Shown: piece by piece, positions 8,864-29,416 of the stretch | Layout: every line of letters begins with the position of its first letter | Numbering within the stretch: the first letter of the stretch is position 1 | Assembly: GCA_016200325.1 (NCBI GenBank) | Contig: JACQEZ010000004.1 | Coordinates: 1 to 64,000 of the forward strand | DNA length: 64,000 bases | Direction of reading: 5' to 3' | From: Candidatus Manganitrophaceae bacterium | GTDB taxonomy: Bacteria; Nitrospirota; Nitrospiria; SBBL01; Manganitrophaceae | The notes under the pieces: model-generated | Seen by the model: the letters and a program-made list of their open reading frames with translations, nothing else | Databases searched by the model: none | Told to the model about the DNA's origin: nothing | Translations under genes and position numbers: made by a program

Positions 8864-9132
8864 ATTAACCGAGCGATTGTCAACCTCTTTCATATTCATT
8901 AGAAAAAAAATTCTTCCAAGTAACAATACCGATCCCATTCGCCCGCTTAACAAGAAATTCACCCTCCGTTGATTTTCCCCCAACATCGTTTTGTTTCAAT
9001 TGAAGTAGGTAAGAACCAAAGGGGATAAATAGACAAACAAAGGAGGATGCTTTCCTGATCATCGGATCGCTGATGACGCCGAAGCAAGGAACGGAACGAT
9101 AACACGAGCGATAAACCGGAAGGAGCCACACA

Positions 9133-9345
9133 ATGACCTGCCCTTATCTCAACACCATGAGGAGCATCGCCGGAACGTCCCATTGCTGCGCGACCGAATC
9201 GGCCTTTGAGCCGAGTTCCTTTGAACTCGCCGATTATTGCACCTCCCGATTGTATCGGTGGTGTCCGCTTTATCGTCAGACGGTCGCAGCACCGCCGATC
9301 CATTTGATCCACCCAGTGTCCCAGAAGACGCGCCCGGCCGTATGA
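9133..9345 (+). CDS. Small cysteine-rich protein, CPY...YC...CPLY type
   Basis: A 70-residue protein with cysteines at 3, 18, 19, 36 and 44, the last two in YCTSRLYRWCPLYR. It has a good ribosome site (AGGAG, seven bases before the ATG). I recall short proteins with this CPY...YC...CPLY pattern from Nitrospirota and Desulfobacterota genomes, but know no function for them; metal or Fe-S binding is plausible. It is divergent from the Rrf2 gene and 134 bases ahead of a second small cysteine protein. The 297 bases upstream (8836-9132) hold only the presumed divergent promoters. Confidence 0.6.
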   Translation: MTCPYLNTMRSIAGTSHCCATESAFEPSSFELADYCTSRLYRWCPLYRQTVAAPPIHLIHPVSQKTRPAV

Positions 9346-9479
9346 GCGCCGACAGACTTTATGAAAGAATTTACAGCCCTTTAACATCGACTTGATTCGG
9401 CGATAACAGGCAGCGTTTAGAATGAAAAAACAAAGAGAGGGATCGCATCCGAAAACGACCTTCAAGAAGGATCCGATAA

Positions 9480-9695
9480 ATGACCTGCAGACGTTGTTGT
9501 GGAATGATGGTGGCCGATCGATTTTTGGACGCGCCCGGGCGTACGGCGCAGCTCATGTGGCGCTGTGTCTCCTGCGGCGACATGATTGATCCAGTGATTC
9601 TGATCAACCGGATGCGTTGGCCTCACATCAACAAGAAGCACCCCCCTCGCCAAATCCTCCTTCATCCCGTGCGCGCCGCGCGGAACGTCTCATGA
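9480..9695 (+). CDS. Small zinc-ribbon protein
   Basis: A 71-residue protein with two cysteine pairs, CRRC at residues 3-6 and CVSC at about 29-32, the second followed by GDMIDPVILINR. This is a zinc-ribbon arrangement; an extra cysteine at residue 7 stands where a glycine is usual. AGAAGG nine bases before the ATG supports translation. Similar mini zinc ribbons are common and unassigned in Nitrospira-type genomes; they may bind nucleic acid or regulators. The function is unknown. Confidence 0.6.
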   Translation: MTCRRCCGMMVADRFLDAPGRTAQLMWRCVSCGDMIDPVILINRMRWPHINKKHPPRQILLHPVRAARNVS

Positions 9696-9717
9696 GAGGC
9701 GGTTTGCATTCAATAGG

Positions 9718-11001
9718 GTGTTCATGATGGGGTCCTTAAATCTTCCAACGTTGCTTCACCGTCCGGCCGTTCCGACGAGCCCGACCCTCCCGCAGAGGCG
9801 TATCGGTGCGATCGATGTCGTCCGGGGACTCCTGATCTGCCTGATTACCCTCGGCCACAGTCACATCCTTCTGAACGATTCGGAGTTCAATCAACGGCTT
9901 GTTTTGATCTTGTCCAAAATAACCAATCTGGGAACCCCCGCCTTTACCTTTATCAGCGGAATGCTTCTCGGTTATTTCGAAGCGACCGCGTCGGACTTCC
10001 GACGCATTCAGCAGAGCTACTTCAAACGGGCGCTCCAACTTCTCCTCTTCGCCCATCTTCTCATCGCAGCGGGGACCTACCCGCTGCGTCAGGAGAGCTC
10101 TTTTGCGTCGGCGTTCTTGCACTATTGGTATGTCACCGATACGCTGGCGATTCTCTTTATCGTGGTTCCGGTTCTCTTTGTGAAGGTCCGACCCGCCGGC
10201 CGCCTCCTGATCGGCATCGCCTGTCTCTCCCTCTGGAAACTCGCTCTCTTCTTTCTCATTGGCTTCGCGCCCATTGCCTTCGCGCCCACCGGCTTCGCCC
10301 CCCTTCTTCTGGTGAGAGAATTCTTATTCGGCGTGAATTTCCAAGGCAATCATCTGTTGAGCGACACCTATCCGATGGTTCCGCTGTTCGGTCTCTTTCT
10401 GACGGCAACGGTGTTGGGAAACCGCTTCGGGCAGGCCGTCCGGGGCGGGCGGACGGAGGGTTTCGTAAAAGAACTTAAAAAGAGGATCGCGCCGCTGCTC
10501 CTTCTTTCATTTTTGATGGTCGGTCTCTGGGCCTGGGGAAAGCGCCATCCGGAGAGTCCGTTGAGCGGCATTTTGAGAATGGTTTTCTATCCGGAGAAGC
10601 TCTCCGCTCTCCTTCCCTTCTATATCGCAATCTTTTTTTTGATTCTGGCCTACTATATTCAAAAGATTGAGGTCCAGGGAAAATTCGGGCCGATGGAACG
10701 TCTCTTCGCCCTCTTTGGAAGAATCTCTCTATTTACCTACGTGGCACAATACTTCGTCGTGCAGACCTTTCCCTCTCTGCTCGGATGGCGGAACAGCATG
10801 AACCTCCCTGAGCTCCTTCTCTATCTCTTCGGCGCAATGCTTCTCCTCTATGCCGCCGCCAGCGTCTATAGCCGCTTTTTGAAGCGATCACGACGAACGG
10901 ACGAAACCCATGCGATCAGGGTTGAAAGGAGCCTCTCCGCAAAAAAAGTCTCGCCTCTTTATGCTTCAGACCTCCCCCAACCGAGGAGAGACCTTTGGTG
11001 A
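9718..11001 (+). CDS. Integral membrane acyltransferase (OpgC/DUF1624/acyltransferase-3-like)
   Basis: A membrane protein of up to 427 residues with about ten hydrophobic helices. Near the N-terminus, RIGAIDVVRGLLICLITLGHS matches the opening helix of OpgC and DUF1624 acyltransferases, in which an arginine and a histidine are conserved. It probably acylates a cell-surface glycan or lipid. The start is unsure: GTG at 9718, or ATG at 9724 or 9727; none has a strong ribosome site. A short in-frame tandem repeat (three FAP units, 10264-10308) lies in a loop. The flippase gene follows 75 bases downstream, suggesting a shared role in surface polysaccharide. Confidence 0.6.
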   Translation: MFMMGSLNLPTLLHRPAVPTSPTLPQRRIGAIDVVRGLLICLITLGHSHILLNDSEFNQRLVLILSKITNLGTPAFTFISGMLLGYFEATASDFRRIQQSYFKRALQLLLFAHLLIAAGTYPLRQESSFASAFLHYWYVTDTLAILFIVVPVLFVKVRPAGRLLIGIACLSLWKLALFFLIGFAPIAFAPTGFAPLLLVREFLFGVNFQGNHLLSDTYPMVPLFGLFLTATVLGNRFGQAVRGGRTEGFVKELKKRIAPLLLLSFLMVGLWAWGKRHPESPLSGILRMVFYPEKLSALLPFYIAIFFLILAYYIQKIEVQGKFGPMERLFALFGRISLFTYVAQYFVVQTFPSLLGWRNSMNLPELLLYLFGAMLLLYAAASVYSRFLKRSRRTDETHAIRVERSLSAKKVSPLYASDLPQPRRDLW

Positions 11002-11076
11002 ACTCTCTTTCGCCCCCTAACCGTTTATTTCCGCTCTTCCGTATCGAACGCGGAGGCGTTGAAAAGGAGTTGGTTC

Positions 11077-12615
11077 ATGAAATTCGCTTTCGAAACAAAA
11101 GACAGATCGATTCATGTAGAGACATTGATCTTGATTGTGGGACGGGCCGCCTCTTTTCTCTTCACCTTTTTTATACCGATCTTCCTCGCCCGGAATCTCG
11201 CTCCGGCGGAGTATGGCACCTTTAAACAGATCTTCCTGGTCTTCACCACCCTCTATTTGATCTTGCAAGGAGGGATGGTTCAGAGTCTTTATTATTTCAT
11301 TCCGCAGGACCCGGCGCGAAGATCGGCCTGGGTCTTTCAATCGGCGCTCTTCGTCACCGCGGCGGGGGGGCTCGCCGCCGTTGCCGTCCTCCTCGGCGGA
11401 AACGGACTGGCGCTCTACTTCTCCAACCCGGCGCTCGGGGAGTTCATTCCCAAGCTGGCCCTCTTCACCTTGTTGATGCTCGGGTCGTCTTATCTGGAAA
11501 CCACTTTGATCGCCCAGCAGCGGATGGCCGCCGGCTCGGCCGCCTTTTTTCTCTCCGAGATCGTTCGCGGCCTTTTCATTATCGTTCCGCTTCTGATCGA
11601 TCCTTCCCTCTCATCCGTCGTCTCAGGATTGATCGCCTTCGCGATGATTCGATTCCTTGCGACGGCGATCTTTACCATCCGGAGCGTCATCACGCCGGTG
11701 GCGTTTCCCCTCTCTCTCTTTGATGCCGGCCGCCTTAAAACGCAGCTGGCCTATGCCCTTCCGTTTGGGGTGGCGGTTTTGGTCGACATCATCCAGCAGA
11801 ACCTTCACCAATATGTCGTCGGCAACCTCTTCGATCCGGCAACCTTTGCGATCTACTCGGTTGGAATCATGCAGCTTCCGATCGTCGATTTTATCTACAC
11901 CCCGGCAACGCAGGTCTTGATGGTCCGGATGACCCCGCTGCTCAAGTCGGAATCGGGGGAGGAGCGCCTCGCGCTCTGGCATGATGTCACCGCGCGGCTC
12001 GCCCTCTTCTTCTTTCCCGCCGCCTTCTTCTTCTGCTTAATCGCCCCCGATTTCATCACCCTTCTCTTCACAAATAAATACAGCCAGAGCATCCCTCTGT
12101 TTCAGCTCTCCGTCCTGACGATCTTGCCGGCGGCGCTTCTCTCCGATGGAATGCTGCGCTGTTATGCCGAGATCCGCTTCATCCTCGTGACAACGGTCTT
12201 AAAATCTCTCCTTACGGTCGGGTTGATCATCGTTCTCATCAAAACCGCCGGACTGACCGGGGCGGCCCTCACGGCGGTGATCACGGTCTATTTTGGGAAG
12301 CTGATCATGCTCTGGAAGATTCAAAAGCGGATGGCCGTCTCCTGGAGACGTTTTCTCCCTTGGGCAAACCTCTCCGGGACGATTCTGCTCGCCGGCGGGG
12401 TGGCCGCGCCGCTGGCGCTCCTTCGTCATACGATCGTCCTGCAGCCATTTACAGCGTTGGCACTCCTGACCACCCTTTATTGGACGATCTATGCAGCACT
12501 TCTCTTTTCGACACCGCTTCTTCCCTCCTCGATTCGGGCGCTCGTCTGGAGCCACCTCGACCGTCTGCTCCAAACGATGCGGGGAACGAGAAATCTGGCC
12601 AAGAAACCGGCTTGA
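11077..12615 (+). CDS. Polysaccharide flippase (Wzx/MATE-like)
   Basis: A 512-residue membrane protein with about 12-14 helices of the polysaccharide biosynthesis/oligosaccharide flippase superfamily. The N-terminal region, with FLARNLAPAEYGTFKQI, is typical of Wzx-like proteins. It should move lipid-linked oligosaccharide units across the inner membrane. I chose the ATG at 11077 because AAGGAG lies seven bases upstream; a TTG at 11059 is in frame but has no such site. No glycosyltransferase cluster is adjacent, so the substrate cannot be guessed. Confidence 0.75.
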   Translation: MKFAFETKDRSIHVETLILIVGRAASFLFTFFIPIFLARNLAPAEYGTFKQIFLVFTTLYLILQGGMVQSLYYFIPQDPARRSAWVFQSALFVTAAGGLAAVAVLLGGNGLALYFSNPALGEFIPKLALFTLLMLGSSYLETTLIAQQRMAAGSAAFFLSEIVRGLFIIVPLLIDPSLSSVVSGLIAFAMIRFLATAIFTIRSVITPVAFPLSLFDAGRLKTQLAYALPFGVAVLVDIIQQNLHQYVVGNLFDPATFAIYSVGIMQLPIVDFIYTPATQVLMVRMTPLLKSESGEERLALWHDVTARLALFFFPAAFFFCLIAPDFITLLFTNKYSQSIPLFQLSVLTILPAALLSDGMLRCYAEIRFILVTTVLKSLLTVGLIIVLIKTAGLTGAALTAVITVYFGKLIMLWKIQKRMAVSWRRFLPWANLSGTILLAGGVAAPLALLRHTIVLQPFTALALLTTLYWTIYAALLFSTPLLPSSIRALVWSHLDRLLQTMRGTRNLAKKPA

Positions 12616-12654
12616 TGTTTTCCGGGAACACAATTGATCCCCGAGCCACTTAAG

Positions 12655-13401
12655 ATGATGCCACCACATGCAGCAGAAAAGAGGACGGAGTCGGAGGAGA
12701 TCCTCATCATCGAGGACAATCTCGACATGATCGAGATTCTGAAAAAGGAGCTGACCCGGCACCACTACCGCGTCCGCGCCGCACCCGACGGCGAGACGGG
12801 GCTTTTCGAGGCAAAACGACAGCCGCCGGCCCTGGTCATCCTCGATCTGATGCTTCCCGGCCTCAGCGGATGGGACATCTGTCGACTGATGAAAGCCGAC
12901 CCGCAAACCGAGACTATTCCCCTTCTGATCCTCACCGCGCTGGCGGAGGAAGCCGACCGGATCCATGGGCTGGAGTCGGGCGCGGACGATTATCTCTCCA
13001 AGCCGTTTAGCCTCCGCGAGCTGATGGCCCGCGTCCGCGCCCTCCTCCGGCGAAAACGAATGGCCTCGGATGAGAAAACAGACCCTCTCCTTCGAAGCGG
13101 TCCGCTCGTCATCGATACCGCTCGCCATGAAATTCGAATGGCCGGCCGGCTTCTCCGGTTCACCCGAATTGAGTTTGGAATTTTGAAACACCTGGCGCAG
13201 CATCCCGATAAAGTATTTAAACGGGACGAGCTGATCTCCCTGCTCTGGGGAGAGAGTCGATTTATCGAGGCGCGCAACCTCGATGTCCACATCCATTCCA
13301 TTCGGCAACAGTTGGAGCCCGATCCGGCGAATCCCTGCTTTTTGATCACCGTCCGCGGAGTCGGATATAAATTCCACCCGCCGGAAGAAGCGACCGGATA
13401 G
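12655..13401 (+). CDS. PhoB-like OmpR-family response regulator (orphan)
   Basis: A 248-residue regulator. The receiver domain (about residues 14-130) has the acidic pair IIEDN, the phosphorylation aspartate in LVILDLMLPG, and KPF. The C-terminal winged helix includes FTRIEFGILKHLAQHP, RDELISLLWG and VRGVGYKF. DLMLPGLSGWDICRLMK, TIPLLILTA and ESGADDYLSKPF resemble PhoB more than other family members. No histidine kinase is adjacent. A Pho-type promoter for a porin begins 95 bases after its stop. The start is ATG 12655 or 12658; no clear ribosome site is visible. Confidence 0.75.
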   Translation: MMPPHAAEKRTESEEILIIEDNLDMIEILKKELTRHHYRVRAAPDGETGLFEAKRQPPALVILDLMLPGLSGWDICRLMKADPQTETIPLLILTALAEEADRIHGLESGADDYLSKPFSLRELMARVRALLRRKRMASDEKTDPLLRSGPLVIDTARHEIRMAGRLLRFTRIEFGILKHLAQHPDKVFKRDELISLLWGESRFIEARNLDVHIHSIRQQLEPDPANPCFLITVRGVGYKFHPPEEATG

Positions 13402-13496
13402 GGATTCGTTTCTATGAATTCTTATTCTCTTTCGTCTATCCGATCTTTATCCCGGGGCTTATTATCCCCCGTCGCTCCATCCTTCTTCGGGACGCA

Positions 13497-13551
13497 TTTA
13501 ACATCTATTTAACAAACCGGTAACCCCCGCGTGATTCAAACAACGTATTTT
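13497..13551 (+). promoter_or_regulatory. Pho-type promoter of the porin gene
   Basis: Four 7-base units stand at exact 11-base steps: TTTAACA (13497), TTTAACA (13508), GGTAACC (13519) and CGTGATT (13530). A -10-like TATTTT begins at 13546, 16 bases after the start of the fourth unit. This 7+4 arrangement is that of tandem PhoB boxes, and the same layout appears twice upstream of pstS. No good -35 is present, as expected for an activator-dependent promoter. The predicted transcript has a leader of about 300 bases. Confidence 0.65.
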
Positions 13552-13630
13552 GACCTTGTCTTTTGAAGGCGAAATCGGCTATCTTCCTGTCGCCTTCCGT
13601 TATGAACTCATCACAGTGAAGGTTGATCAG

Positions 13631-13717
13631 ATGGGACAGAAGCAGAAGAAAAAGAGAGAGCAAATCTCCAGCTTATTGATGGCGATCCGAAGAGAAGTCG
13701 CTCGGGCGATCGGCTAA
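13631..13717 (+). CDS. Possible 28-residue leader peptide
   Basis: A short frame encoding a very basic peptide (opening MGQKQKKKRE) with GAAGG seven bases before its ATG. It would lie inside the long leader of the porin transcript. There is no homology I recognise and chance is a real possibility. The remaining sequence between 13402 and 13863 shows no other gene. Confidence 0.25.
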   Translation: MGQKQKKKREQISSLLMAIRREVARAIG

Positions 13718-13863
13718 GCAACGCCATCGTCTATCGCGGACCGCTTCATTATCATTCCCCAATCCAGATGAATAACGACCTCATTCGCCCCAGAGAGGAC
13801 CTGGAGTGACAAGCAGGCCGCACCTGTTCCGGTAAACGAAACCCATCAAAATAAGGAGACTAG

Positions 13864-15084
13864 ATGAAGAACACTTTAAGGAAATTTTTGGGGAAAATAA
13901 GCTCGGTATTCGTCATTACCGCAGCCTCGCTCTTGATGCTGATCGGCCCCACATTGAGTTGGGCCGTAGATCTTGGAAATGGATTTAGCCTGAGCAATCT
14001 CACCTATCTCGATTTCACGAACGCCTCCGGAGATTTGGTGGATACGTCATCGGACAAAGATATTAGTCCGGGTCAAGGAAAAACCAATCGGGGATTGGCC
14101 GATGGATTTCACTTCACCCGGGTTTATTTCACCCTCACCAAAGACGTGAATGACCAGCTCTCCTTCCGGATCACCACCGACCAGATGACCGTCCGACCGG
14201 ACGGAAGCACCGAGGGATCCCCCTTTGGTCTCTCCGGTTATGGCGGCGCCGGCCGAGGCAATATGTTTATTAAATTCGTTTATGCTCAATATAAGTTTTC
14301 TCCCGAGCTGATGATTCGGGCGGGGCTCACCCAGACTCCCTGGATCGCAACCGCGGAGGAGCGTTGGACACTCCGCTTCTTGCGCCCCACCTTCTGGGAT
14401 GAGCAGGGGGTGTTGACCTCCTCCGACCTGGGGGTCTCCGCGATCGGAGGGATCCTCAATAATCTGGTCAGCTATCATCTCATGTTCTCCAATGGAGAAG
14501 GCTATCAGAACAACAGCGTCGATGGACGGGGCTATGCAGGCCAGGGGCGGATCGATCTGAACGTGCTTCATGGCTTAACCCTCTCCGCTTTTGGTTTGGC
14601 CGAGACGGTCCACAACGGCGTCCAGAGCTGGAACCCGACCCGGGAAATTTTCTATGCCATGTATACGCATGAAATCTTCCGAATCGCCGCCGAATATATG
14701 CTGGCCGATGATAAATCAGAGGGAAACAGCCCCGCCCTGGCGATCATGACGACACCGGGCAGTGCGAGCGGCTCCAAGGGAGCAAGCACCTCCGGTCCGC
14801 GCTTTGATCAGGCAAAAGGCTACGGCTCCTGGGCATGGGTGCGAATTCCGGGAATCGAGGCACTCCGCGTCTTCGGCCGATTCTATACGATCAAGCCGAA
14901 CACCACGACCAATGCGGGCAAGACGACGGAATTCAATGCCGGCATCAGCTATGATATTTCCAAAGAGCTGATTGTGGCGATCGACGACACGATGCTCTCT
15001 CAGAAGCTGCTTCGCGTCTCCACCGGAGATACCGAAACCTTCAAAGACAACATCATCGGCCTCCGCGCTCAGTTGTCGTTCTAG
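13864..15084 (+). CDS. Outer-membrane porin, probably phosphate-induced
   Basis: A 406-residue beta-barrel with a signal peptide (cleavage near residue 35, after LSWA), alternating strand sequence, many aromatic and glycine residues, and a terminal phenylalanine (RAQLSF). AAGGAG stands upstream of the ATG. I cannot assign it firmly to the OprP family; it looks like the general porins annotated in Nitrospirota. The Pho-type promoter upstream suggests that it admits phosphate or phosphorylated compounds. A strong terminator follows at 15105. Confidence 0.65.
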   Translation: MKNTLRKFLGKISSVFVITAASLLMLIGPTLSWAVDLGNGFSLSNLTYLDFTNASGDLVDTSSDKDISPGQGKTNRGLADGFHFTRVYFTLTKDVNDQLSFRITTDQMTVRPDGSTEGSPFGLSGYGGAGRGNMFIKFVYAQYKFSPELMIRAGLTQTPWIATAEERWTLRFLRPTFWDEQGVLTSSDLGVSAIGGILNNLVSYHLMFSNGEGYQNNSVDGRGYAGQGRIDLNVLHGLTLSAFGLAETVHNGVQSWNPTREIFYAMYTHEIFRIAAEYMLADDKSEGNSPALAIMTTPGSASGSKGASTSGPRFDQAKGYGSWAWVRIPGIEALRVFGRFYTIKPNTTTNAGKTTEFNAGISYDISKELIVAIDDTMLSQKLLRVSTGDTETFKDNIIGLRAQLSF

Positions 15085-15104
15085 GAAAAGCACGAAGTGT
15101 TATT

Positions 15105-15159
15105 CCTGGCCGCTCCCCTCGTTTGTTAAAAACAGTGAATGGGAGCGGCCAGGCATTTT
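15105..15159 (+). terminator. Rho-independent terminator after the porin gene
   Basis: A perfect 13-base stem (15105-15117 with 15141-15153), rich in G and C, is followed by CATTTTT. On the minus strand no T-run follows, so it mainly serves the plus-strand porin transcript. It lies between the convergent porin and tolC genes. Confidence 0.85.
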
Positions 15160-15173
15160 TGAACAGATCCGGA

Positions 15174-16490
15174 TCACTTCGTGAGCGATCCCCCGACCGC
15201 CAGCTCCAGGTGGGCCACCGCCTGGTTGTAGTCATAGAGGGTCCGAATATATCCGGTTTCTGCACCCGCCAAGAAGGTCTGCGCATCGATGAACTCGATG
15301 ATATTGCCGACCCCTCCTTTGTAGCGCCCCTCCGCAATCCCCAATCGCTCTTTCGCCTCGGTCGAATTTTGTTGGGCCAGCGGAATCCTCTGCCGCGCCG
15401 ACTGCATATCGTTATACGCCTCCTCCACTTCCAGCGCGACCTTTTGCCGCGCCGCTTCAGTTTGTTCACGAACCTGGGTCAGATGCGCCTTTGCCCCATC
15501 GACCTGATGCCGGACCCGAAACCAATTGAGCGGAAAATCGAGGATCACCGCCACATCCCAATTGGAGGTGAACGGAAAGTCCGCTCCGCGGGCGTTCACA
15601 CTGCCGCTCCCGACCAGAAATGGAAAGAAGTTGCTCCGTGCCCCTTCGACTTCGCCCCGCGCCCCCTCTTCCTGTGCAAGCCGCTCTTTCAGATCGGGGC
15701 GTTGCGCATAGGCCTGCCTTTGAAAGTTCTCCAAAGTTCCCGGCGGCTCCGCATATGCGAGGATATCTTCGACTTTGTAGGGCCGGTTCGTCTCCAACCC
15801 CATCGCATGGTCGAGGGAGGCTGTGGCATTCTTGAGCTGGCCGACCGCCCGAACCAAGACGGTCTGCGCATCGATCAGGTTGGTTTTGGCCGTGGAGACG
15901 TCGATCTTTGGACGCAGGCCGATTGCATAACCCTCTTGCGTCATCTCCAACGTTTTTTCGAGTTTGGCCACCGACGCCTGATCGGCCGCGATCAACCGTT
16001 GGATCGCCAGGTAGGCGAAATAGGCCTCCTTTACATTGAGAATCGCCTCTTGCCGGGCCACTTCCAGCGTATAGCCGGCCGCCCGTGCCCCCGCCTCGCT
16101 CGTCTTCAGTTGCGATGACCGACGGCCGAAGTCGTAGAGGACCTGATTGACGACGAATCCGCCGAGAAAATTGTTGGAGGCATCCCAAGAGCGGCCCGGT
16201 TGGCCGGTCCTCGGAATCCCGGGGAGCGAAAGATAACTCGATCGCGTTTGGTTATTGGTTCCTTCAAGATCCTCGGCAAAGAAATGGATATCGGGATAAT
16301 AGTTCGACTGAGCGAACGCCTCACCGGCCTTCGCCGCCTGAAATCCTCCCTGCGCGGCCCGGATCTCCGGAAGGTTCTGAAGGGCGTTGGTGATCGCCTG
16401 CTGTAAGCTGAGCGTGGGCGGTTCCTCCGCTCCAACGTTCGCGGCGGTCAACAGGATGAGCAGGCCGACGAAGAAAAGAGCCCGCTTCAT
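15174..16490 (-). CDS. TolC-family outer-membrane efflux channel
   Basis: A 438-residue outer-membrane factor with a signal peptide of about 21 residues and two long alpha-helical/coiled repeats (LSLQQAITNALQNLPEIRAAQ at the start is the usual first helix). It should form the trimeric exit duct for the adjacent RND pump. Its ATG overlaps the RND stop codon by four bases, so the two are translationally coupled. It is the last gene of a three-gene minus-strand operon. The substrate is unknown. Confidence 0.88.
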   Translation of the reverse strand: MKRALFFVGLLILLTAANVGAEEPPTLSLQQAITNALQNLPEIRAAQGGFQAAKAGEAFAQSNYYPDIHFFAEDLEGTNNQTRSSYLSLPGIPRTGQPGRSWDASNNFLGGFVVNQVLYDFGRRSSQLKTSEAGARAAGYTLEVARQEAILNVKEAYFAYLAIQRLIAADQASVAKLEKTLEMTQEGYAIGLRPKIDVSTAKTNLIDAQTVLVRAVGQLKNATASLDHAMGLETNRPYKVEDILAYAEPPGTLENFQRQAYAQRPDLKERLAQEEGARGEVEGARSNFFPFLVGSGSVNARGADFPFTSNWDVAVILDFPLNWFRVRHQVDGAKAHLTQVREQTEAARQKVALEVEEAYNDMQSARQRIPLAQQNSTEAKERLGIAEGRYKGGVGNIIEFIDAQTFLAGAETGYIRTLYDYNQAVAHLELAVGGSLTK

Positions 16491-19400
16491 GCCGCTCCCC
16501 CACCATCCGAGTGGATCGGTTCGGCCTGCCCGATGGCGGGTGGGCCGAAACGCTTTCGCAGCCGCTCCTCTATTAGAGAGTAAAGGGCCGGAATCAGAAA
16601 AAGGGTAAGGAAGGTCGAAACCAGAAGCCCCCCGACCACGGCGCGGGCGAGCGGCGCGTTCGCCTCGCTTCCAACCTCTAATCCCAACGCCAAAGGGAGA
16701 AGGCCGAAGATCGTCGCCAGGGAGGTCATTAAAATCGGGCGGAGCCGGACCCGGCCGGCGCGGCTGATCGCCTCCGCCGGCGCAACCCCCTGGCGCTGGA
16801 GGAAGTTCGCATAGTCAATTAAAAGAACCCCATTGCTCACTGCAATCCCCACCAGCATGATGATTCCCATCAAGGAGGTGGTGGAGAGGGTGGTATTGGT
16901 TAAATAAAGGGTGATAAAAACACCGGTGAGCCCGAGCGGCACGGTGAGCAGGACGATCAGCGGATGGATAAACGAGCGGAACTGCGATCCCAGCACCATG
17001 TAGATGAGGAGAACGGCCAGGCCCATTGCAAAGAAAAGGCTCTTAAAGGTCTTCTCTTGCTCTTCCATCTGCCCCCGGTAGGCGAGGTGAAAACCGGTCG
17101 GGAGTGAAACGGTCGCAAGTTGTTTTTTGAGATCTTCTCCGACCGAGCCGAGATCGCGGCCGGCGGGATTGGCCGTTAAATCGATCACCCGTTGCAGGTA
17201 TCGTCGTTCGATCTGAACCGGCCCGGAGCCTCTTTGTAGGCGCGCGACCGTCTTCAAGAAAACCGGCTGACCATTGTTGATAAAAAAGATGTTGTTCTCC
17301 AGATCTTCCAGGTTGCTGCGGAAAGGCTCCTGCAGCCGGGTCACCACGTAATATTCATTTCCGGTCGCCGGATCGGTGAAGATCGGCGCCCCGGAGAGGT
17401 TTCCGAAAATGGAGGAGAGGACGGCATGCGCGACCTGAGATTCATCGATACCAAGGAGGGAAGCCTTTTCCCGATCGACATTAATATCGATCTCAGGATA
17501 GTTCTCCTCCCGACTGATCATCACATCGGTCAAGCCGGGAATCTTTTTCATCTCCGAGGCAAGCTGTCTTGCCGTGGAGGCCGCCTGCTCGAAACCATAC
17601 CCCCTCAGCTCCACATCGATTGGGGCGCTGTAGCCGAAGTTCAGAATTTTCTTCACCACCCCTCCCGTGTCAAACGAGACCAGAATTCCGGGGAGGGCTT
17701 GTTCAAGCTTGGGCCTCAGCAGACTGACATATTCCAAGACGCTCTTCTTCCGCTGATCCGGTTGGACCAGGTAGACCATGACATAACCGGAGTGCGGCCC
17801 GGTGTTCGTACTGTAGAATGCGGAGCGCCCCGCCCGAGGAGATCCCATATTCGAGAGGAGGGTCAAAACCTCTTTTTGAGGAATCGTCTCTCGAATCATT
17901 TTCTCTACCTTCTCCACCACCTTCTCCGTCTCTTCGAGCCGGGTTCCGATCCGGTTTCGGACAATCACGCGAAATTGTCCTTCGTCCGCTTCCGGGAAAA
18001 ATTCCGTGCCGATGAACTTCAGCAGACCGAGCGAGAGGAAGAAAATCGTCGCCATTCCAAAAATGAGCGGAACCCTCCGTCGGATTGCCCAAGCGGCCCC
18101 CCGCTCATATTTCTCGTCAAGGCGATCGAGAAGACGTTGCGATCCCTTGAGCAGGCGCTTGAGTGGGCCGGCCCGTTTTTGCTCATGGCCTTCAGCCCGC
18201 AGAAAACGCTGGGCCAAAGCAGGAATGACCGTCATCGAAACAAAGTAGGAGGCGCCCATCGCAGCGCACGCCGTTAAGGCGAGCGGCATGAAGGTATATT
18301 TAGCGACCCCCGTGATAAAAGCGACCGGGAGAAAAACAATCATGAAGGTCAACGTCGCCGACAACACGGGAAGTCCCACTTCGCGGGTCCCGGCCAGCGC
18401 CGCCTCCATCGGGTATTCCCCCTTTTCCACATGCTTGTGAATGCTCTCCAGAACAACAATCGCATCATCGATCAGCCGCCCGATCGCCAAGGTCAGCCCG
18501 CCGAGGGTGAAGGTGTTCAATGTTCCGCCGGTGAAATAAAGAAAGACAAAAGCGACAAAAACCGAGAGGGGAATTGAAACGGCGGCAAAGAGGGTCTCCT
18601 TCATGCTCCCGAGGAAAAGAAGGATCACAATAAAGGTGAGGACCGCTCCCTGGAGCGCCTCGTTCTTGAGGCTCTCAATCGCATTCCGAATATAGATAGA
18701 CGTGTCAAAGGTGACGTTAAGCTGCACCCCGGGAGGAACCCCGTTCAGATGGTGAATCGCCTCTTTGATCTGGTCCACCACCTGAACGGTATTCGTCCCG
18801 GGTTGGCGATAGATATCCATGTAGACCCCTCGGGTCCCATTCACCCGGGAGACGTTCAATTGAATTTGATGGCCGTCGTTCACCCGCCCGATATCTTTAA
18901 TCCGGATCGGGGTGCCGTTGGCGACCCGGACCACCACTTGATTCAGCTGCTGAACCGCGGAGATCTGACTGTTGGTGAAAACGTTATAGTCGAGCGTTCC
19001 AATTTTGATATCTCCCGATTGAAAGATCAGGTCGGCGTTTCGGACCGCTTTCTCCACATCCAGCACCGAGATCCCCCGCTCCCGCATCAGGTTGGGATCA
19101 ATCTCCACATCAATCTCACGGACTTTTCCTCCTTTCACCGTCGCCGCAGAAATACCGGGCAGCGATTCAAGCTGTGGTTCAATGGTATTGAAGGCAAGGT
19201 CATAGAGATATTTTTCATCATATCCCTCTCCGCTGAGTGTCACGGAGGCGATCGGAATATTGGAGATATCAAATTTAACGATAAACGGCGGAAAGATCCC
19301 CTGGGGAAGATTTTTCATGACCGACTGGACCATCTGGGAAACTTCCAATTCGGCCGCGTTGATGTCGGCCCCCCACTTAAACCAGACCCGAACGACGGAG

Positions 19401-19663
19401 AGCCCCTGCTTATTGGTCGACGACACATGATCGAGGCTGCTCACCCCGCTGACCGCCCGCTCGATAATATAACTGACCGCCCGTTCGACATCAGAAGGAT
19501 TGGCGCCGGGGTAGAGGGTCCCGACCATGATGACCGGAACGCTGATATTCGGAAAGAGGTCAATCGGGAGCTCACTGACGGAGATGGCTCCAAGGAGGAT
19601 GATTGCCATGGAAAGGAAAAAAATGGCGATCGGATTCTTTAATGCGGCCTTTGTCAAAAACAT
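16487..19663 (-). CDS. RND-family inner-membrane efflux transporter (HAE1/AcrB-like)
   Basis: A 1058-residue proton-driven pump. It has the first membrane helix near residues 10-30, a large periplasmic loop, then helices 2-6 with GRLIDDAIVVLE, whose aspartate pair serves proton relay as in AcrB. The second half repeats the plan (RPILMTSLATIFGLLPLALG). The full length and the DD pair place it in the hydrophobe/amphiphile (HAE) group rather than the metal (HME) group. It lies between its adaptor and its TolC partner. Likely substrates are hydrophobic toxic compounds; none can be specified. Confidence 0.92.
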   Translation of the reverse strand: MFLTKAALKNPIAIFFLSMAIILLGAISVSELPIDLFPNISVPVIMVGTLYPGANPSDVERAVSYIIERAVSGVSSLDHVSSTNKQGLSVVRVWFKWGADINAAELEVSQMVQSVMKNLPQGIFPPFIVKFDISNIPIASVTLSGEGYDEKYLYDLAFNTIEPQLESLPGISAATVKGGKVREIDVEIDPNLMRERGISVLDVEKAVRNADLIFQSGDIKIGTLDYNVFTNSQISAVQQLNQVVVRVANGTPIRIKDIGRVNDGHQIQLNVSRVNGTRGVYMDIYRQPGTNTVQVVDQIKEAIHHLNGVPPGVQLNVTFDTSIYIRNAIESLKNEALQGAVLTFIVILLFLGSMKETLFAAVSIPLSVFVAFVFLYFTGGTLNTFTLGGLTLAIGRLIDDAIVVLESIHKHVEKGEYPMEAALAGTREVGLPVLSATLTFMIVFLPVAFITGVAKYTFMPLALTACAAMGASYFVSMTVIPALAQRFLRAEGHEQKRAGPLKRLLKGSQRLLDRLDEKYERGAAWAIRRRVPLIFGMATIFFLSLGLLKFIGTEFFPEADEGQFRVIVRNRIGTRLEETEKVVEKVEKMIRETIPQKEVLTLLSNMGSPRAGRSAFYSTNTGPHSGYVMVYLVQPDQRKKSVLEYVSLLRPKLEQALPGILVSFDTGGVVKKILNFGYSAPIDVELRGYGFEQAASTARQLASEMKKIPGLTDVMISREENYPEIDINVDREKASLLGIDESQVAHAVLSSIFGNLSGAPIFTDPATGNEYYVVTRLQEPFRSNLEDLENNIFFINNGQPVFLKTVARLQRGSGPVQIERRYLQRVIDLTANPAGRDLGSVGEDLKKQLATVSLPTGFHLAYRGQMEEQEKTFKSLFFAMGLAVLLIYMVLGSQFRSFIHPLIVLLTVPLGLTGVFITLYLTNTTLSTTSLMGIIMLVGIAVSNGVLLIDYANFLQRQGVAPAEAISRAGRVRLRPILMTSLATIFGLLPLALGLEVGSEANAPLARAVVGGLLVSTFLTLFLIPALYSLIEERLRKRFGPPAIGQAEPIHSDGGGAA

Positions 19664-19702
19664 TCGTCACATCTCTGGGTTTAGAAGAATGAGGTCCATT
19701 GA

Positions 19703-20848
19703 TTATAAAGCCGTGGGAACCCCGAGCGGACGGGGCGCTGTCTCGGTCTCTTCGACGGGGGTGCCGGTGGTCACCAGATCCTGTCCGGAGAGGATGACGC
19801 GCTCACCGCCAGAGAGCCCCCGCGTCACTTCGAGGAAATCGCCCGCGTCATACCCGGTCGTGATCGGAATCCGCTTCGCCTTTCCGTCCTCCACGATAAA
19901 AATGGAAGCCCCGCTTTCTTGAACCTGGATCGCCTCCGCCGGAAGGAGAAGACTCTTGGGATGGCGGTCGACGACCAGGCTGACCCGTCCATACATTCCC
20001 GGCTTCAGTGCCAGATCGGGATTCGGGAGATCGATTTCCACCAGCAGTGTCCGCGAATTTGGATCAATCGCATGGGCGAACCGGGTAACCTCCCCCCGAA
20101 AGAGCCGTCCCGGAAAGGCGTCGACGGAGAACTCCGCCTTCTGATGGAGCCGGATGAGATGGGTCTCTTGCTCGGCGACATTTACTTGAATGCGGAGGGC
20201 ATCGATCTTCATCAACGTCATGATCGGCGGGTTGCTGTTCGGCGCCACCATTGCGCCGGGATCGAGATAGCGCATGGTGATATAGCCGGAGAAGGGGGCG
20301 GTTAAAGTGGTGTACTGCAGTCGGACCTGTCTTCCGCGAAGATCGGCTTTTGCCTTCTCCCAATTGGTCCTCGCAACTTCAAAGGCGAGCTCGGCATTGT
20401 CGACATCCTGTTGAGACACAAAATCCTTTTTATGCATATCACGGTAGCGTTGCAGGTTCAGCTCCGCATTTTTATAGTTGGCCTCCGCTTGCCGAACCGC
20501 CTCCTCCGCATGCTTGACATTCTCGGCCTCCTCTGAAGGATTGATGGTCGCAAGAAGTTGGCCTTTCTTCACGAAGTCTCCCTTGTCGACATCAACCTGC
20601 ATCAAAAAACCGCTCACCGCCGTTGGGAGAATATTGGCCTGGTAGACCGCCTGAATGTTCACCGGGTAGCGCAGCTTGATATCGAGATCTTGGATGATCG
20701 GCTTGATCACCTGGACGGAGACTTTGCGCAACCCCTTCTCCAGCTTTAAATGGGTGCCTGAAGAGGCCGATCTCTCATGAATGAGGAAGGTCATCCCGAG
20801 AATGAGGCCGACGGCCGCGACAATGTAAACAAACGATTTGATCTTCAT
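19703..20848 (-). CDS. RND periplasmic adaptor (membrane fusion protein)
   Basis: A 381-residue adaptor. It has an N-terminal membrane anchor or signal (residues 6-22), a barrel-sandwich/lipoyl-like half, a long helical hairpin (about residues 105-170, rich in A, E, Q and N), the second lipoyl half (TLTAPFSGYITMRYLDPG) and a beta-barrel/membrane-proximal end. It links the inner-membrane pump to TolC and is the first gene of the operon, 39 bases before the pump gene. AAGGTGGA upstream of the ATG supports the start. Confidence 0.9.
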   Translation of the reverse strand: MKIKSFVYIVAAVGLILGMTFLIHERSASSGTHLKLEKGLRKVSVQVIKPIIQDLDIKLRYPVNIQAVYQANILPTAVSGFLMQVDVDKGDFVKKGQLLATINPSEEAENVKHAEEAVRQAEANYKNAELNLQRYRDMHKKDFVSQQDVDNAELAFEVARTNWEKAKADLRGRQVRLQYTTLTAPFSGYITMRYLDPGAMVAPNSNPPIMTLMKIDALRIQVNVAEQETHLIRLHQKAEFSVDAFPGRLFRGEVTRFAHAIDPNSRTLLVEIDLPNPDLALKPGMYGRVSLVVDRHPKSLLLPAEAIQVQESGASIFIVEDGKAKRIPITTGYDAGDFLEVTRGLSGGERVILSGQDLVTTGTPVEETETAPRPLGVPTAL

Positions 20849-21416
20849 TTATATCATCCACCTTGTGGGTCTGATTACAGAGCCACGGTTCAGCGCAAGC
20901 AGCCACGCCGGACGAGGCGCCGGAACATCCTTGTGATCAGCTGAAGGAAGGCATATACGATATTTTGGAAAACATACCGGAAGTAATTTTAACCGTCCCT
21001 CACTCTGTCCCTCTCCACTCGTGAGAAGGACCCAGTGAAGGAAGAAGAATCTTCAAAGAGGCAATAGGGCCCATGGGCGGAAGAGATCGGGCTTTCTGTA
21101 ATCCCGTCTCTTTCTTTCTCCATGGGCTTTCCGAGAAGATACTTTTATATTCACCTCCCTGTTGGTTTTTGCCGTCCCGAACTTCTGTCCTGTCCGTTTG
21201 TTATTGTGAACGACCGCCAACCTCTAACCGAATAAAAATTTAACCTAATGCCCATTAGAAAACCGTTAAAAAGGGATTAAACTTATTTAATATTTCAGAG
21301 AGACCCACACATAATGCATCCACCCTTTGATCAGCCAATCAGGGTATAATTGCGCTGAAACGGATTCACGGCAATCCAGGGGGAGAAACGCTGTTGAACC
21401 GGAGGAGAGAGATGAA
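20849..21416. other. Divergent intergenic region between the RND pump and the symporter
   Basis: This 568-base gap has no credible gene. It holds the pump promoter at its left end, a long imperfect hairpin at 21069-21127, and an AT-rich stretch with the palindrome CTAATG-CC-CATTAG at 21245-21258, which may be an operator. The ribosome site of the symporter (GGAGGAGAGA) is at 21401-21410. Confidence 0.6.
21069..21127. other. Long intergenic hairpin
   Basis: GCCCATGG (21069-21076) pairs with CCATGGGC (21120-21127). Inside, AAGAGA and CGGG pair with CCCG and TCTCTT with a single-base bulge. No poly-T follows, so it is not a simple terminator. It could be a structured RNA or a leader element of either flanking gene; I recognise no known family. 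Confidence 0.5.
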
Positions 21417-22688: not shown

Positions 22689-22786
22689 ATCAATCTTCTG
22701 AGAGGGTCGTCCTCGAGAGGGGTCGATTCCCAGAGCCCGATCGGCGCTGATTTTATTAACTCTCGGAGTATGTTACAATCGCGCCC

Positions 22787-24878: not shown

Positions 24879-24922
24879 ACGCGGACTCAAGCTTGAAATC
24901 AATAGACCCTCTCCCGGCGTCA

Positions 24923-24977
24923 TTTAACAGCGAGTTAACATTGGCGTAATCAGCACGTGATCCAAATAAAATATCGT
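24923..24977 (+). promoter_or_regulatory. Distal Pho-type promoter of pst
   Basis: Units TTTAACA (24923), GTTAACA (24934), CGTAATC (24945) and CGTGATC (24956) stand at 11-base steps, followed by TATCGT at 24972, again 16 bases after the fourth unit. The last unit and following bases (CGTGAT.CAAA) match the porin promoter almost exactly. The leader it would produce contains a small hairpin with stems 24999-25005 and 25010-25016. Confidence 0.65.
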
Positions 24978-25093
24978 TCTATCGCAAGATCATAGAGACC
25001 CAGAAGGCTTTCTGGGGTGGACCCCGCAGGTGTCGATAAGCTACTGAAACTACTGGATTATAAAAATAGGTGAACGGCTTCTGTATCCAGTGA

Positions 25094-25148
25094 ACGTCAA
25101 ACCTGTTAACACGGATTTAACAACTTCGCAACGGAAGCGAAATAAAAT
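25094..25148 (+). promoter_or_regulatory. Proximal Pho-type promoter of pst
   Basis: GTTAACA (25105) and TTTAACA (25116) are 11 bases apart, flanked in the same register by weaker units ACGTCAA (25094) and CGCAACG (25127). TAAAAT begins at 25143, 16 bases after the fourth unit. The start codon of pstS is at 25174, leaving room for a short leader with its ribosome site. It is weaker than the distal site because two units are degenerate. Confidence 0.5.
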
Positions 25149-25173
25149 CGATTTAACATTAACTGGGAGACTT

Positions 25174-26187
25174 ATGTTAAAAAAAATAATTTTAAGCAGC
25201 TTGTTCCTGATCTCTTTCATCGCTCCAGTCTCGGCTGAATCCCTTCTGATCAACGGCGCCGGCGCCACCTTCCCCTATCCGATCTATTCGAAGTGGTTTG
25301 ACGAATATGCCAAACTGCATCCCGATGTCCACTTCAATTACCAATCGATCGGCTCCGGCGGCGGCATTCGGCAGATCTCCGAGGGAACGGTCGATTTCGG
25401 CGCGACCGACGGTCCGATGAGCGATGAGCAGCTCCAAAAGACCAAGACCAAGATCCTCCACTTTCCGACCGTCCTCGGCGCGGTCGTCCCGACCTACAAC
25501 ATTCCGGACGTTCAATCCGATCTCAACTTAACCGCTCAGGCGCTGGCCGGCATTTTCCTCGGAAAAATCACGAAGTGGAACGATCCGGAGATCGCGAAGG
25601 CCAACCCCGGCGCCAAACTCCCGGACAAGCCGATCATCGTGGCCCATCGTTCGGACGGATCGGGGACGACCTATGTCTGGGTCGATTTTCTCGCCAAGGT
25701 CAGTCCCGAGTGGAAAGAGCGGGTCGGCGTCGGAACGGCGGTCAAATGGCCGGTCGGCCTCGGCGGAAAAGGGAATGAAGGGGTCACCGGGCTGGTCAAG
25801 CAGACACCGTATTCGATCGGCTATGTTGAGTTGATTTATGCCGAGCAGAACAAGCTCCCGTTTGGAAAGGTCCAGAATCAGTCGGGGGCTTTTGTGAAGG
25901 CCGACCTGGCGGGGGTCACCGCGGCGGCGGCTTCGGCCAAGATGCCGGAAGACTTTCGGGTCTCCATCACCAACCCTCCCGGAAAAGAGGCCTACCCGAT
26001 CTCAAGCTTTACCTGGCTTCTGATCCCGGCGCAGATCTCCAACCCGGCCAAAGGGAAAGCGATTGTCGACTTCTTAAAATGGATGCTTCGCGACGGCCAG
26101 GCGATGGCGTCGCAGCTCACTTACGCGCCGCTTCCAAAGGAAGTGGTCACCATGGAAGATAAAGCAATTGGGCAGATCAAGTACTGA
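25174..26187 (+). CDS. Phosphate-binding protein PstS
   Basis: Periplasmic high-affinity phosphate receptor of 337 residues. A signal peptide covers residues 1-22 (ending VSA). Conserved phosphate-binding segments follow: NGAGATFPYPIY, IGSGGGIRQI, DFGATDGPM and HRSDGSGTTYVWVDFL. I chose the ATG at 25174, which gives a proper signal peptide and has GGGAGA upstream; an earlier in-frame ATG at 25090 would add an unlikely hydrophilic extension and lie inside the proximal Pho promoter. It is the first gene of pstSCAB-phoU. Confidence 0.96.
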   Translation: MLKKIILSSLFLISFIAPVSAESLLINGAGATFPYPIYSKWFDEYAKLHPDVHFNYQSIGSGGGIRQISEGTVDFGATDGPMSDEQLQKTKTKILHFPTVLGAVVPTYNIPDVQSDLNLTAQALAGIFLGKITKWNDPEIAKANPGAKLPDKPIIVAHRSDGSGTTYVWVDFLAKVSPEWKERVGVGTAVKWPVGLGGKGNEGVTGLVKQTPYSIGYVELIYAEQNKLPFGKVQNQSGAFVKADLAGVTAAAASAKMPEDFRVSITNPPGKEAYPISSFTWLLIPAQISNPAKGKAIVDFLKWMLRDGQAMASQLTYAPLPKEVVTMEDKAIGQIKY

Positions 26188-27139
26188 TTCCTCGCTCCCC
26201 CTCATCTCCGATCGGTCCGGAGTCCATTGGGCCGATCGGATTTTTCGCGTCACGATGTTGCTCATCGCCCTCTCCGTTCTCCTGATTACGGCGGTCATCG
26301 CCTTCGAGCTCTACTGGCACTCCCGTTTGTCGATTGCGAAATTCGGCTGGGCGTTCCTCTGGCAATCCACCTGGGATCCGGTGGCGGAAGAGTTCGGCGC
26401 CCTTCCCTTTCTCTATGGCACCCTCGTCACATCGATTATTGGATTGTTGATCGCCATTCCGATCGGATTGGGGGTCGCCATCTTCCTCTCGGAGCTCGCC
26501 CCCCGCTGGCTCTCCGATCCGATCACCTTCCTGGTGGAGCTGCTCGCCGCCATTCCGAGCGTGATTTACGGTTTGATCGGAATCTTTGTCTTGGTTCCCT
26601 GGATTCGCAATGTGTTGGAGCCGATTTTGAGCGCCACCCTCGGCTTTCTCCCGATCTTTCAGGGGGCGCCGTACGGCGTCGGGATGCTGACGGCGGGAAT
26701 CGTGCTGGCGATTATGGTGATCCCTTTTATCGTATCGGTCTCTCGAGAGGTCCTCATCGCGGTTCCCCGCTCGCAACGGGAGGCGATCCTCTCCTTGGGG
26801 GCAACCCGATGGGAGATGGTCTGGATCGCCATCCTTCCCTACGCCCGCTCCGGCATTCTCGGCTCGATCTTTTTGGCGTTGGCCCGGGCGCTCGGGGAGA
26901 CGATGGCGGTGACGATGGTGATCGGCAACCGCCCCGAGATCAGCGCTTCGCTCTTCGAGCCGGGATATACGATGGCGTCGGTCATCGCCAATGAATTCAC
27001 CGAGGCGACCTCCGATCTCTATGTCAGCGCCCTGGTCGAAATCGGGCTGGTTCTCTTCGCGGTGACGGTCGTCGTGAATGCGCTGGCCCGGTTGCTGATT
27101 TACAGCGTCTCCACAAAGAGAGGAGCGATCCGAACGTGA
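26168..27139 (+). CDS. Phosphate ABC transporter permease PstC
   Basis: Inner-membrane permease of up to 323 residues with six helices; it pairs with PstA. It contains the BPD-transporter loop REAILSLGATRWEMVWIAILP and ARALGETMAVTMVIGN typical of PstC. The start is uncertain: a TTG at 26168, inside the end of pstS, gives the usual cytoplasmic N-terminus, while the ATG at 26255 would begin directly at the first helix. I prefer the TTG. Confidence 0.92.
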   Translation: MGRSSTDSSLPLISDRSGVHWADRIFRVTMLLIALSVLLITAVIAFELYWHSRLSIAKFGWAFLWQSTWDPVAEEFGALPFLYGTLVTSIIGLLIAIPIGLGVAIFLSELAPRWLSDPITFLVELLAAIPSVIYGLIGIFVLVPWIRNVLEPILSATLGFLPIFQGAPYGVGMLTAGIVLAIMVIPFIVSVSREVLIAVPRSQREAILSLGATRWEMVWIAILPYARSGILGSIFLALARALGETMAVTMVIGNRPEISASLFEPGYTMASVIANEFTEATSDLYVSALVEIGLVLFAVTVVVNALARLLIYSVSTKRGAIRT

Positions 27140-27996
27140 ATGCCGCCACCCCGCTTTATCGCCGACTGACCAACATCGTGATGCTCTCCCTGACCGGTCT
27201 GTTTACCCTCTTGACCCTCGGCGTTCTCTTCTTTATCCTCGGATATATCACCTATCACGGGATCACGGCACTCGATTGGGACTTCTTTACGAAGCTGCCG
27301 AAACCGGTCGGTGAGACGGGGGGCGGAATGGCCAATGCGATTGTCGGAACGATCAAGCTGCTGGGGCTGGCGAGCCTGATCGGCGTTCCGATCGGCTTCT
27401 TCGGCGGGGTCTATCTCTCGGAATATGGAAAGGAGACGACCCTCGGCTTTCTCGTCCGTTTCTCCACCGACCTTCTCAACGGCTTTCCCTCGATCGTCAT
27501 GGGCATTTTTGCTTATATTCTGATCGTTCTTCCGATGAAACACTTCTCCGCCCTGGCCGGGGGATTCGCCCTCGGGATCATGATGATTCCGATCGCGCTC
27601 CGTAGCACCGAAGAGTTTTTGACTTTGGTCCCCGCCTCGATCCGGGAGGCGGCGCTCGCGCTGGGACTGCCGGAGTGGAAGGTGATCACCTTCGTCGTGA
27701 TCCCGACCGCCTTTCGAGGAATTCTGACCGGGGTGATGCTCGATATCGCGCGGGTGGCGGGGGAGACCGCCCCGCTCCTCTTCACCGCCTTCAGCAACCG
27801 CTTCTGGGCCAAGGGGCTGATGGAGCCGACCGCGAGCCTGCCGGTGATGATCTACACCTATGCCATCGCCCCGTATGAAGACTGGCATCGCCAAGCGTGG
27901 GCCGCCGGGATGGTCCTCTTGATGCTCGTGCTCGTCGCCAATCTGGTTGCGCGGCTCGTCCTGCACCGTCGATTCTTTCAATCTGGGGCATCTTGA
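27136..27996 (+). CDS. Phosphate ABC transporter permease PstA
   Basis: Second permease of the phosphate importer, 286 residues. It starts at a GTG that overlaps the pstC stop (GTGA). The docking loop [23 protein letters not shown] is cut by no gap, and [15 protein letters not shown] is the typical PstA motif. Translational coupling by overlap runs through the whole operon. Confidence 0.94.
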
Positions 27997-28757
27997 TGAG
28001 CAAACCGATCTTTGAAATCAGTCAACTCCACGCCTGGTTCGGCGAGGTCCATGTCCTGAAAGGGATCAACCTCTCGATTGCGCCACGGGAGGTCACCGCC
28101 CTGATCGGCCCCTCCGGCTGCGGAAAATCGACCTTTATCCGCTGCCTGAATCGATTGCACGAGGTCATTCCCGGCGCGCGCCTCTCCGGAAGCATTCTCC
28201 TCGATGGGGGGACGATTTATGGACCGGGGATCGATGCGGCGATGATCCGGCGGCGGGTCGGAATGGTCTTTCAAAAGCCGAATCCCTTCCCGACGATGTC
28301 GGTTTTCGACAACGTGGCGGCGGGATTAAAATTGGGCGGCGTCCGCCGCCGCGACGTTCTCGAGGAGCGGGTGGAGCGGGCGCTGAAACAGGCGGCCCTT
28401 TGGGACGAGGTCAAAGATGCCTTGCACAAATCGGGAATGAGCCTGTCCGGCGGCCAACAGCAGCGGCTCTGCATCGCCCGCGCCTTGGCCGTCGATCCGG
28501 AAGTCCTTCTGCTCGACGAGCCGACCTCGGCGCTCGACCCGATCGCCACCGGCCGGATTGAGGAGCTGTTGCGGGAATTGAGAGAGAGCTATACAATTGT
28601 AATTGTCACACACAACATGCAGCAGGCGGCCCGAATCTCCGACAAAACCGGATTTTTCTTGCTCGGAGAGCTGGTCGAATTCGATGTCACCTCAAAGATG
28701 TTTACGAATCCGAAAGATTCGCGGACGGAAGATTATATCACCGGGAGATTTGGATAA
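27996..28757 (+). CDS. Phosphate ABC transporter ATPase PstB
   Basis: The 253-residue ATPase of the importer. Walker [10 protein letters not shown] is at 38-46, the signature LSGGQQQRL near 149, Walker B VLLLDEP near 169 and the histidine switch VTHNMQQA, which is specific to PstB. The ATG at 27996 shares its first base with the pstA stop. A longer upstream frame exists but is antilogous to pstA coding and has no support. Confidence 0.96.
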
Positions 28758-29416
28758 TGGCGCACCGCCATTTTGAAGAAGAGCTGACACGACTGAAGGA
28801 GCGCATCCTGAAGATGGGGGCGCTGGTTGAAACGCAGATCGCCGCCTCCATTAAAGCGCTGGTGGAGCGCGACACCGCATTGGCGAAGCAGACGATCCAG
28901 AACGACCATCTGGTCAACGCGATGGATGTCGAGGTCGATGAAGAGTGCATCCGGCTCCTCGCCCTCTATCAGCCGGCGGCCCGCGACCTCCGCTTTATCA
29001 CGACCGCCATGAAAATCACGACCGACCTGGAGCGGATGAGCGATCTGGCGGAAGATATCTGCGAGCGATCGATCGAGCTCGCCGAAGAGCCGCTCCTCAA
29101 GCCCTATATCGACCTGCCGCGAATGGCGGAAGCGGCCCAGAAGATGGTCCGGGAGACGCTCGATGCATTCGTCAACAAAGACGCCGCACTCGCTCGAAAA
29201 GTCTGCGCCGAAGATGAATTCATCGACGACCTTACCCAGCAGATCTTCCGGGAGCTTCTCTCCTACATGTCGGAAGACCCTGCCACGATCACCCGCGCCA
29301 TCCGGATCAGCTTCATCTCCAAATACATCGAACGGATCGGCGATCACGCCACGAACATCGCCGAAATGGTCGTCTACCTGGTCGAAGGAAAAATCATCCG
29401 ACATACAAAAGTGTGA
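28757..29416 (+). CDS. Phosphate signalling protein PhoU
   Basis: A 219-residue helical protein with two three-helix PhoU repeats. Metal-binding motifs of the family are seen as DLERMSDLAEDICE in the first repeat and IERIGDHATNIAE in the second. It links PstSCAB activity to the PhoR-type kinase and represses the Pho response when phosphate is plentiful. Its ATG overlaps the pstB stop (TAATG). Confidence 0.95.
   Translation: MAHRHFEEELTRLKERILKMGALVETQIAASIKALVERDTALAKQTIQNDHLVNAMDVEVDEECIRLLALYQPAARDLRFITTAMKITTDLERMSDLAEDICERSIELAEEPLLKPYIDLPRMAEAAQKMVRETLDAFVNKDAALARKVCAEDEFIDDLTQQIFRELLSYMSEDPATITRAIRISFISKYIERIGDHATNIAEMVVYLVEGKIIRHTKV

Follow-up and report, generated by a model that had tools for sequence, protein, structure and literature searches.

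The stretch of DNA analysed here (henceforth the window, 64,000 nucleotides at its full length), from an uncultured bacterium of the Nitrospirota, carries on its forward strand a porin gene, P0001 (13864..15084), whose promoter and leader follow directly on a gene, P0002 (12634..13401), for a second PhoB-like response regulator with no adjacent kinase; orthologues of P0002 follow Pho boxes in relatives. The porin promoter is built from four 7-bp units in an 11-bp direct repeat, TTTAACA (13497..13503), TTTAACA (13508..13514), GGTAACC (13519..13525) and CGTGATT (13530..13536), with a TATTTT hexamer (13546..13551) whose first base lies 16 bp beyond that of the last unit. The first-pass annotation had described a Pho-type promoter with exactly this arrangement, and every position was recovered on re-reading. 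A site search found no sigma-70 -35/-10 pair at this promoter, and the fourth unit stands in place of the -35 at the fixed 16-bp distance from the -10. Three porin-site units recur within the window at pstS only, and 100 dinucleotide shuffles gave 0 matches.

The pstS-pst locus, also on the forward strand, comprises pstS (25174..26187; TIGR00975 over cut-off), pstC (26168..27139), pstA (27136..27996), pstB (27897..28757 as the open reading frame is listed, the true start probably lying later) and phoU (28757..29416; TIGR02135 over cut-off). Two Pho boxes precede pstS. The distal one (24923..24977) consists of TTTAACA (24923), GTTAACA (24934), CGTAATC (24945) and CGTGATC (24956), followed by TATCGT at 24972, and it bears out the earlier claim that the register, a nearly identical last unit and the 16-bp distance to a -10 are shared between the porin and pstS. 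The proximal one (25105..25159; 2 mismatches to the looser pattern described below) lies immediately 5' of the likely pstS ATG at 25174; its first two units are good (GTTAACA at 25105, TTTAACA at 25116), its last two are degenerate (CGCAACG and CGAAATA), and TAACAT follows at 25154, again at +16.

We scanned the 4.21-Mb genome with the four-unit pattern KTAAC N6 KTAAC N6 GTAAY N6 GTRAY at up to 3 mismatches, using the reversed pattern as the control. The pattern gave 10 matches and its reversal 0, the analytic expectation being 2.2 at up to 3 mismatches and 0.14 at up to 2. Importantly, the -10 hexamer is not part of the search pattern, so that its position can be tested without circularity: TAnnnT occurred exactly at +16, counted from the first base of the last unit, in 5 of the 10 matches, where chance would give about 1% for each. 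Since the porin site and the distal pstS site were the examples from which the first-pass annotation started, the independent part of this result is 3 of the other 8 matches. The five sites precede the porin, pstS (two sites), a calcineurin-like metallophosphoesterase (Metallophos PF00149; C20:175406-176488) and, on contig C11, two genes in succession, the second of them Phytase-like (PF13449). The protein of 509 aa encoded at C11:209368-210897 looked by eye like PhoX, but this assignment found no Pfam or PDB support and was dropped. The remaining 3-mismatch matches (C1:68, C1:2624, C1:113399, C7:194113 and C11:76043) have no TAnnnT at +16 and were not retained as regulon members. The first two are identical copies of one box-like sequence at the end of a contig, with 2.5 kb between them, either a duplication or an assembly repeat. 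A looser pattern (KTDAY) with the -10 built in added a one-mismatch box 74 bp before the start of phoB (C19:374771-374824). This pattern had been widened after the first matches were seen, which makes its zero-mismatch count partly circular, and its counts (31 versus 11 in controls at 3 mismatches) were for that reason not used as evidence.

The genome-wide scan that had been proposed as a check thus placed sites before phosphate genes of the same genome (pstS, phoB, the metallophosphoesterase and the operon with the Phytase-like gene), and before pstS and porin genes throughout the class. When up to 2 mismatches were allowed, the four-unit pattern gave 91 matches in 58 genomes (this one and its relatives) versus 6 for the reversed pattern, the majority of the sites being intergenic. 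TAnnnT stood at +16 in 21 of 54 distinct sites, as against 0 to 4 at each of 34 other offsets (14 in all). Among the 20 downstream genes that were scanned, 12 encode PstS-type PBP_like_2 proteins, 3 Porin_O_P, 1 Porin_5 and 1 a BPD transporter subunit. In two genomes of family f10 a gene that looks like polyphosphate kinase (L158 22047-24245 and L156 11390-13651, contig coordinates) has a Pho-like box just upstream.

Over the related sites the units are graded: TTTAACA or GTTAACA in the first position, T(T/G)TAACA in the second, (T/C)GTAAY in the third and CGTRAY in the fourth. The proposal of a Pho regulon whose consensus departs from the enterobacterial CTGTCAT therefore holds as regards the departure, the clade consensus lacking that core, but not as regards a uniform TTTAACA, which is confined to the upstream units and passes downstream into CGTGAT. 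The departure is also less exotic than was implied. E. coli Pho boxes share the 11-bp direct repeat; at phoA and pstS of E. coli K-12, counting the unit from one base into CTGTCAT likewise puts TAnnnT at +16 relative to where the last unit begins; and the promoter of phoE, which also drives a porin, has TTTAACA in register, as here. What differs is the unit, mainly TGTCATA in E. coli, and the presence of four units at the strongest sites here. The core of the Pho box is known to vary between species (PMC4415409), so that a CTGTCAT core is not required. The Pho boxes of cyanobacterial SphR, found at pstS, sphX, phoA and nucH, are repeats of CTTAACCT with a 3-bp linker and an 11-bp period, and their units TTAACC, TTAATC and TTGATC nearly equal the Nitrospirota unit (PMC1906773). 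The SphR boxes belong to another phylum and are described with at least three units, whereas the sites here have four, with the unit types in a set order, and a -10 at +16. Since the geometry matches that of E. coli and the units resemble those of SphR, the class-II geometry is conserved, with a consensus that is a variant near the cyanobacterial one; from one phylum to another the 11-bp unit and the 16-bp spacing persist, and it is the bases of the consensus that drift. Overall, the four repeats before the porin very probably form a genuine class-II PhoB-type promoter, one that is ordinary in kind and carries a clade-specific, graded consensus, although its -10 and the related -10 hexamers are weak. 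In the open literature searched we found no paper describing a Pho box in Nitrospira or other Nitrospirota, and the graded pattern offers a testable definition of the Pho box for Nitrospirota.

The genome encodes eight clear OmpR/PhoB-type regulators, and a PhoB/PhoR pair is among its genes. The PhoB orthologue (G000:C19:374847-375590) is the best match to the pst-adjacent regulators of relatives, with 54-59% identity, and its recognition helix, RTVDVHIRRLR, is that of E. coli PhoB; the residue of the wing that aligns with E. coli R219 is a proline here and a lysine or asparagine in other members of the class. The best PhoR match (C1:5291-6379, 51%) is not adjacent to phoB. We considered whether the boxes might instead be bound mainly by P0002, as a paralogue that has taken over part of the Pho regulon. 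Its gene lies directly upstream of the porin promoter, its orthologues (70-71% identity within the genus, 51-52% in f10) belong to Pho clusters and are preceded by Pho boxes, and it retains the wing arginine that is absent from PhoB of this genome. However, its recognition helix reads RNLDVHIHSIR, it is PhoB that is preceded by a Pho box of its own, and in the f10 and f9 loci it is PhoB with a kinase, not P0002, that adjoins pst. On this evidence control by P0002 is unlikely, and PhoB, ranked above it, can be named with good confidence as the probable activator of the Pho boxes. The two regulators show opposite patterns, P0002 having an altered recognition helix with the wing arginine kept. 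Considerably less probable still is a metal-responsive control of these promoters by the CusR-like regulator and kinase beside pstS (22787-24878): the pair adjoins pstS, and the OmpR/PhoB family does bind 11-bp direct repeats, but the regulator is closest to the heavy-metal subfamily (TIGR01387), a similar pair is present elsewhere in the genome, the pst loci of relatives carry boxes with no such pair, and metal control would leave the link between boxes and phosphate genes across the class wholly unaccounted for. The idea that the repeats arose by coincidence and regulate nothing, for which one could cite the frequency of lone TTTAACA heptamers in AT-rich intergenic DNA, has next to nothing left to it given the empty shuffles, the excess over the reversed pattern in the genome and in the class and the fixed -10 offset.

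The first-pass annotation had suggested that the gene behind this promoter, a porin, belongs to a Pho regulon. P0001 matched no family in the Pfam and NCBIfam scans, and its alignment against the sequences of solved structures returned nothing relevant. Its AlphaFold model (17 sequences, pLDDT 73, loops of low confidence) has 16 barrel strands and matches porins at E about 1e-12, with OprP (2o4v) as the third structural match. The known phosphate porins OprP and OprO (PF07396) resemble P0001 in being outer-membrane channels linked to pst genes and in having a 16-strand barrel; they differ in that neither P0001 nor its family matches PF07396, the only family above cut-off being Porin_4 in 1 of 17 relatives (0 families for P0001 itself). 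The match of the model to OprP is no better than that to general porins, so phosphate selectivity is unproven. In three genomes from another family (f9), pstS is immediately preceded by a homologue with 38-40% identity, and in a wider sample a kinase, the porin and pstS stand in a row in five f18 genomes, with pstS adjacent at further loci; just upstream at the three f18 loci that were read is TTTAACG-N4-TGTAACA-N4-TGTAATA-N4-TGTAACA or a one-base variant. Two observations count against the Pho-promoter explanation: in this genome its gene is 10 kb from pst, and no match to it was found in five sister species. In the sister species that were examined, a Porin_5 gene precedes a different PstS instead and stands behind a Pho box of this type, so the promoter is retained even as the porin beneath it changes. 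P0001 may be read as a porin outside any Pfam family that is assigned to phosphate uptake.

Whereas the Pho regulon proposed in the first-pass annotation stood, that reading of the promoter had overlooked a conserved microORF. It occupies 13631..13717 (forward strand) in the leader that separates promoter and porin, is preceded by a plausible ribosome site and encodes 28 aa, MGQKQKKKREQISSLLMAIRREVARAIG, with the tail AIRREVARAIG. In the sister species, where the porin is unrelated, the leader codes for MAQNKKKKKISLRKAILREISRAIG or a slight variant of it; in one of them (G004) a one-base difference in an A-run, which may be an assembly error, breaks the frame. In other families, too, members stand first in porin-pstS operons, and the porin starts 50-147 bp downstream. 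A profile search found one copy in this genome (E 8e-14), and no Pfam family was found for the microprotein. For ten members, the final 15 codons give a pooled pS of 0.67 against a pN of 0.12, and the members between them use all three stop codons. To judge from these substitutions, the microORF is under purifying selection at the protein level in Pho-controlled porin-pstS leaders, even in those that now precede a porin of a different family. We also considered an RNA attenuator in the porin leader and rejected it: the leader has no terminator-like site, its folding is no better than that of shuffles (z 0.17), and an Rfam search of 9000-26000 gave no match. The lack of an attenuator or special fold favours a translated protein over a regulatory RNA as the likely basis of the conservation.

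The microprotein is the new and surprising part of the porin transcript, and no described family matched it. The Pho promoter probably also expresses, as its first product, a conserved basic peptide of 25-36 aa with the signature AI-x-RE-(V/I)-x-RAIG-stop that stands at the head of such operons across a Nitrospirota class, which would make it an unrecognised, tail-defined component of phosphate homeostasis. Such a peptide could be, for example, a modulator of PhoR, PhoU or Pst, or of porin assembly. Gene callers overlook the family, whose link to phosphate operons is made by its promoter, its synteny and the purifying selection on it. At one further locus, G027:C69 (L159, L230), the microORF precedes not a porin but an efflux-type operon, by eye HlyD-like, AcrB-like and OEP-like.

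Overall, our preferred explanation, which we hold to be highly likely from the combined sequence comparisons, is that a PhoB class-II promoter drives the microprotein and the porin at low phosphate. Under these conditions phosphorylated PhoB would bind head-to-tail, as two dimers on the four 11-bp units, the last of which would replace the -35 and bring sigma-70 RNA polymerase to TATTTT. Transcription would start at about 13558 and give a leader of about 300 nt, and the message would be translated into the 28-aa basic microprotein and then the outer-membrane porin, through which phosphate would be admitted to the periplasm, for PstS.

A further Pho box, found by the looser pattern with 1 mismatch, lies upstream of P0002 at 9369..9423 (ATTTACA TTTAACA CTTGATT GATAACA, with TAGAAT as the -10 at +16). 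Behind it, on the same strand, follow a small zinc-ribbon-like open reading frame (9480..9695), an acyltransferase (PF01757; 9718..11001) and, in the same gene run, a polysaccharide flippase (PF13440; 11059..12615), and an equivalent cluster occurs in the sister species. The gene content of this cluster (9369-12615) suggests a possible remodelling of surface polysaccharide at low phosphate. The sister species' cluster contains a P0002-like response regulator, a small phosphatase-like protein and PhoB. Just before the box, 9133..9345 (forward strand) encodes a small Cys-rich protein (C3, C18, C36 and C44). In family f6 (Nitrospiraceae-like) and a few others, the microprotein tail also forms the C-terminus of a four-cysteine protein of 67 aa. 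Its gene often lies upstream of one whose product begins MxKLxxxDIGTNSIHMVLAEVE, a candidate ppx/gppA, and usually behind a degenerate box with TAnnnT at +16; in the genus of the window the cysteine domain is a separate protein within the Pho cluster. That the Cys domain and the tail occur both split and fused suggests, and falls short of proving, a functional link between them. The model of the Cys-rich/tail protein (pLDDT 58) shows nothing interpretable beyond a helical tail. Loci of this kind also occur at L251:1501-1704 and L233:1498-1701.
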